In this document: positions 1,772 to 13,196 of the stretch, piece by piece
Layout of the letters: the number at the start of each line of letters is the position of its first letter
Numbering within the stretch: position 1 is the stretch's first letter
Source: Owenia fusiformis
Lineage: Eukaryota > Annelida > Polychaeta > Sabellida > Oweniidae
Assembly (NCBI GenBank): GCA_903813345.2
Contig: CAIIXF020000005.1
Location: 26,539,375-26,603,374, forward strand
DNA length: 64,000 nucleotides
Reading direction: 5' to 3'
Position numbers and translations under genes: made by a program
The notes under the pieces: generated by a model
Database searches by the model: none
What the model was told of the DNA's origin: nothing
The model's input: the letters and a program-made list of their open reading frames with translations, nothing else

Positions 1772-1909
1772 AGAAGCCAGGCATATGCCCCAGTTTAAAC
1801 CCAGGCACTGTTGGCAGTTGTGCAGAAGAATGCAGCGATGATGCAGCTTGTCCAGACATCCAAAAATGCTGTTATAATGGATGTGGCCACTCCTGTATAG
1901 ATCCTGAGG
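1772..1909 (+). CDS. WAP domain exon 1
   Basis: Acceptor TTTTCAG before 1772, donor GTATGTG after 1909, phase 1-1, 46 codons. The translation begins [16 protein letters not shown] and carries the eight cysteines of a four-disulfide core, including the [10 protein letters not shown] end typical of WAP domains. These are usually protease-inhibitor or antimicrobial modules. Confidence 0.85.

Positions 1910-13196: not shown

Follow-up and report, generated by a model that had tools for sequence, protein, structure and literature searches.

The window analysed here is a stretch of 64,000 nucleotides from the annelid Owenia fusiformis (C5:26539375-26603374), and genome searches were run over the assembly (498 Mb, 525 contigs). 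An earlier note had read positions 1772 to 13196 as one receptor of WAP, VWC, collagen-like, defensin-like, EGF and mucin segments with an ITAM tail, and had placed it among molluscs, which is probably wrong given the source. We scored splice sites with our own simple matrices on the strand read for the exons (Table 1). Between 1772 and 12045 we modelled 13 exons, their boundaries picked with the frame in view, and all of them have a length divisible by 3 and read in phase 1-1. The phase-1 organization claimed previously is therefore found throughout this stretch but ends at the tail junction, where exon P is entered in phase 1 and left in phase 2, so that tail exon Q starts in phase 2. Joined, the 24 exons modelled give a single frame of 1966 aa with no inner stop. 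As the boundaries were guided by the frame, and as the join omits the RGD-rich exon and two decayed EGF exons, this open frame speaks for consistency and is not proof. Acceptor scores are poor for exons C and J and low for exon O. The neighbouring genes of the window are given at the foot of the table.

Table 1. Features of the window (positions counted from its first nucleotide).
Feature	Position	Strand	Basis
RGD-rich exon, 3' end with own stop	1..441	+	GMGGGRGD repeats
Exon A, WAP domain, phase 1-1	1772..1909	+	Pfam WAP; acceptor 6.3, donor 7.6
Exon B, WAP domain, tandem copy of exon A	2045..2182	+	Pfam WAP; duplication
Exon C, VWC-type domain	2561..2746	+	Pfam; acceptor -2.4
Exon D, collagen-like, imperfect Gly-X-Thr triplets	2979..3122	+	Read from sequence
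Exon E, 8-Cys module x2	4177..4539	+	Genome matches, alignment
Exon F, EGF	5895..6020	+	Pfam, splice scores
Exon G, EGF	6263..6388	+	Pfam, splice scores
Exon H, EGF	6891..7028	+	Pfam, splice scores
Decayed EGF exon	7287..7350	+	Start identical to exon K, then breaks
Exon J, EGF joined to a short collagen-like stub	8139..8327	+	Pfam; acceptor -1.9
Exon K, EGF	8607..8732	+	Pfam, splice scores
Exon L, collagen-like GATGST repeats	9257..9490	+	Read from sequence
Decayed EGF exon	9656..9784	+	End placed by likeness to copies
Minisatellite of 15 copies of a 60-bp unit, intron preceding exon N	9971..10863
Exon N, Thr/Ser/Pro-rich mucin-like stalk	10914..11600	+	Splice scores, frame
Exon O, collagen-like repeats of a 12-residue motif	11779..12045	+	Pfam Collagen; acceptor 0.5
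Exon P, transmembrane segment	12253..12337	+	Splice scores, read from sequence
Exon Q, cytoplasmic tail and stop	12734..13196	+	14 tyrosines, YEKL-x7-YERL, three YDN, YLTM
Folate-receptor-type exons	21801..24483	+
DUF4504 protein	30945..31775	+
Sulfatase	38537..40063	-
Ras-family exons	53688..62841	-

Pfam searches agreed with the WAP, EGF and collagen-like modules named in the earlier note. The two WAP domains scored E 1.1e-25, EGF exons matched PF00008 at E 6.2e-13 and 1.1e-8, with five EGFs intact, and the collagen repeat scored E 3.9e-7 when exons 11779-13196 were joined. The VWC claim held in part: exon C reached 28.8 bits with VWC2L_2nd (cut-off 27), but its 24.5 bits against PF00093 lie below the cut-off of 27.6, and in the joined 559-aa stretch Pfam listed WAP and EGF only, with VWC absent, at E <= 0.01. 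WAP and VWC exons occur at many loci of the genome, with 24 matches (E <= 0.01) and 23 matches (E <= 0.001), respectively, own locus included. A second tandem array with WAP, VWC and EGF exons lies at C5:41412600-41422500. Three hydrophobic frames are present there (19-residue means of 2.26 to 2.28), and no TM-plus-tail was recognised among the filtered frames of these 9.9 kb.

Exon E had been labelled 'defensin-like'. Examined as a possible defensin or CLIP module, three members of its 8-Cys module matched no Pfam family at E <= 10. Among the best candidates scored in the genome, six match this module at E <= 1, a pair each at this locus, on C9 and on C7; one of the six is weak (0.21). All eight Cys belong to the 14 columns that are invariant across the six sequences. 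The pairs on C9 and C7 precede trypsin-like protease exons in the same orientation (C9:5679800-5689700 and C7:8645500-8655400); a C7 exon matched Pfam Trypsin at 3.4e-10, and those on C9 were assigned by eye. Since the other four matches sit beside trypsin-like exons, 'protease-associated 8-Cys module' is the better name. The module is thus common to this locus and to trypsin-like protease genes elsewhere in the genome, but the C7 and C9 loci run on into protease exons, unlike the locus described here. An AlphaFold model of the module (mean pLDDT 56.8) was too poor for a fold search, and its profile gave two weak latrophilin matches in the PDB (E 0.45 and 3.1).

Parts of the array appear to be young. 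A tandem duplication of 273 bp covers exons A and B (1737-2288), and over 60 bases the introns flanking these copies are alike at 0.68 upstream and 0.82 downstream; for exons H and J the downstream likeness is 0.95. As introns flanking the copies are still alike, part of the array has arisen by recent duplication, which left two decayed EGF exons. The one at 9656 has lost a Cys, carries GAAAGT in place of the GTAAGT of its copies and scores 15.7 bits with Pfam EGF, below the cut-off of 21.5. Nine of ten exon pairs compared show dN/dS below 1 (0.09 to 0.55), the exception being the EGF pair G/K with 1.18; these figures are rough because the pairs are short, some have an exon in common and dS is saturated in F/G and in WAP u2/B.

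Exon P is hydrophobic and its inner end, FFKR, reads as a basic flank. After the split codon the tail comprises 153 residues with 14 tyrosines, among them the spaced pair YEKL-x7-YERL. The ITAM tail proposed in the earlier note is hence present as a motif, but Pfam ITAM (PF02189) does not recognise it: no family matched the tail at E <= 10. An ITAM profile search of the genome gave two sub-threshold matches, both away from this locus, and the tail itself had one genome match at E <= 0.001 among five candidates scored. We compared the tail with 50,000 shuffled tails, trying 11 patterns without correcting the P values. The strict form YxxL-x6-8-YxxL occurred in 0.43% of shuffles (P 0.004, uncorrected for the 11 patterns), its L/I form in 2.1% and the L/I form with x6-12 in 4.7%. 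Three YDN sites appeared in 0.01% of shuffled tails (P 0.0001) and three YxN in 5.2%, and the single YxxM is within chance (17%). A pattern scan of the tail found neither NPxY nor ITIM patterns. YEKL, YERL, YDTI, YSVV and YLTM also fit YxxPhi sorting signals. Over the TM region of exons O-Q (12253-13196), Pfam DAP10 scored 18 bits, below the cut-off of 22.9.

The genome very likely encodes a kinase of Syk/ZAP-70 type, which could read an ITAM-type tail. A SYK tandem-SH2 sequence, used as query, gave seven genome matches at E <= 0.01. The two strongest fall on SH2 exons elsewhere, on C10 and C6, whereas four others line up co-linearly on C1:53027444-53031602; each of these four is weak (E 0.0014 to 0.0099), and two read through stops. 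Kinase exons lie within about 11 kb after the C1 SH2 exons (region C1:53026500-53046300). Joined into one query, the C1 exon pieces matched 982 distinct PDB sequences at E <= 1e-10, headed by four entries of ZAP-70 (2.6e-83) and SYK (4.8e-82); the fifth was labelled EGFR (1.7e-67), followed by further ZAP-70/SYK kinase domains (from 1.2e-55) and then ABL1 (5e-44). The combination of SH2 and kinase exons with ZAP-70/SYK as top matches points to a Syk/ZAP-70-type kinase. SH2 matches in the genome number 48 in all, one being the first exon of the Syk-like gene, and three genes with paired SH2 matches were set aside as SHP2-, p85- and RasGAP-like by eye.

The same strand continues the array beyond the left edge of the window, with Cys-rich, EGF, WAP, VWC, EGF, WAP, VWC, PDGSGM-repeat and RGD-repeat exons. 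The start of the PDGSGM-repeat exon was set by frame, the acceptor site scored being of another phase. Both upstream VWC exons have poor acceptors too (-1.9 each), and the poor VWC acceptor common to the window and to both upstream exons suggests a shared ancestral site. The low-complexity RGD-rich exon contains 31 RGD in its 468 codons, counting the stop, and this stop at 441 is followed by AATAAA at 545, 557 and 622, three in 259 bases compared with 2.31 AATAAA/ATTAAA per kb on the + strand of the window. Some 11.5 kb before the window begins (C5:26527890-26527971), there is a candidate signal-peptide exon with a donor of 9.5. By thresholds chosen after it had been seen, it is the sole candidate in 33.9 kb that combines high hydropathy with a phase-1 donor of at least 9 (one on the + strand, none on the minus strand); such candidates numbered zero on either strand of window 14001-64000 and one in 60 Markov replicates. 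The gene of the receptor proposed for 1772-13196 may start there, about 11.5 kb beyond the window's left edge.

Taken together, the sequence data support a membrane protein that combines these domains with an ITAM-compatible, tyrosine-rich tail. The reading that we lean towards, with confidence a little short of even, is a large exon-shuffled gene for a type I membrane protein that would signal as a single-chain ITAM-type receptor via a Syk/ZAP-70-type kinase; working like a single-chain ITAM receptor is what such a protein most likely does. Its gene would probably start outside the window, about 11.5 kb to the left. Spliced as modelled and placed at the cell surface, it would expose disulfide-rich WAP, VWC, 8-Cys and EGF modules on a mucin-like Thr-rich stalk above one TM helix, and its collagen-like segments may trimerise. 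Ligand binding would cluster the tails, Src-type kinases would phosphorylate the spaced YxxL pair and the Syk/ZAP-70-type kinase of the genome would dock via tandem SH2 domains. Grb2- and PI3K-type adaptors could be recruited at the YDN and YLTM sites, which we take to be their targets. Any engulfment or adhesion output would lie downstream, and phagocytosis is a guess at the function.

How many genes the array comprises bears on this reading. The stop at 441 would either give the same gene a second, soluble end or close a gene of its own. In the latter case two neighbouring genes are present, an upstream one for a secreted protein ending at 441 and a downstream receptor with its own, missed signal exon; the cluster of AATAAA behind the stop fits this arrangement, as does the fact that the modules of the window and those upstream are tandem relatives. 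Against it, we found no good signal-peptide exon in 442-1771, and a relaxed scan of 442-2560 gave eight candidates with donors of 1.3-4.8, far from the 9.5 of the upstream exon. The most hydrophobic of them, 1675-1750, would leave an intron of 21 bases. We regard two genes as possible if doubtful, and the arrangement is compatible with an ITAM-type receptor, so that the likelihoods given here are not exclusive. The far-left signal candidate, the stop at 441 and the weak candidates in 442-2560 leave one gene with two ends, or two genes. Phase 1 throughout would allow the RGD-rich exon to be skipped, and one locus could accordingly make two forms with common N-terminal modules: a soluble RGD-rich matrix protein or opsonin ending at 441 or, with the RGD exon skipped, a membrane ITAM-type receptor. 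Such a locus, assembled from WAP, VWC, EGF and collagen-like modules and with a Syk-type kinase as its reader, would be an invertebrate counterpart of the switch between soluble and membrane antibody; we consider this scenario rather unlikely.

Other readings concern what the protein is for. It might be a matrix glycoprotein of epidermis, mucus or tube/cuticle that, in its membrane form, anchors a coat, the tail tyrosines serving YxxPhi endocytosis or cytoskeletal docking rather than immune recognition. The Thr-rich stalk, the collagen-like Gly-X-Thr segments, the neighbouring RGD-rich exon and the second WAP/VWC/EGF array, whose 9.9 kb showed no recognisable TM-plus-tail, are in line with such a role, and galactosylated threonine has been reported in the collagen of the polychaete Riftia (PMC10141479). 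The spaced YxxL pair and the three YDN sites exceed shuffling and argue against this reading, which keeps a probability below even. That the array is decaying or unsettled and does not encode one functional protein would explain the two broken EGF exons and the poor acceptors of exons C and J. As the modelled exons keep open frames in matching phase and nine of ten pairs have dN/dS below 1, we consider it very improbable.

A single-chain ITAM-type receptor, as we favour it, calls for comparison with the receptors already named. In an open-access library no paper mentioned at least five of the six features WAP domain, VWC, EGF-like, collagen-like, ITAM and transmembrane, and a sample of this literature, which covers the minority of matching papers, named no such receptor. 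MARCO and SR-A, the collagenous scavenger receptors, have collagen-like segments in a surface receptor, as is the case here; they are type II proteins and, to our knowledge, lack this domain set and tail. GPVI/FcR-gamma and G6f-like are ITAM collagen receptors, GPVI being an Ig receptor according to PMC3528668. ITAM-type signalling would be common to them and to the protein described here, but they bind collagen, whereas here the receptor itself has collagen-like repeats. With CED-1/Draper/MEGF10 it has a single TM, an EGF-type ectodomain and YxxL motif(s) in the tail in common, and PMC8092387 describes recruitment of a Syk-family kinase by Draper and by MEGF10. We rejected membership in this family as neither EMI nor NPxY was found: EMI was absent from the Pfam matches of the modelled module exons (E <= 1; joined stretch E <= 0.01), and a genome-wide EMI search gave no match, with its controls silent as well. 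In contrast to CED-1/Draper/MEGF10, the protein carries extra WAP, VWC-type, collagen-like, 8-Cys and mucin-like segments. If its membrane form is real, it would be a single-chain ITAM-type receptor with an ectodomain unlike those of the named engulfment receptors, and the Syk/ITAM pathway would here be joined to a new, freely shuffled recognition surface.
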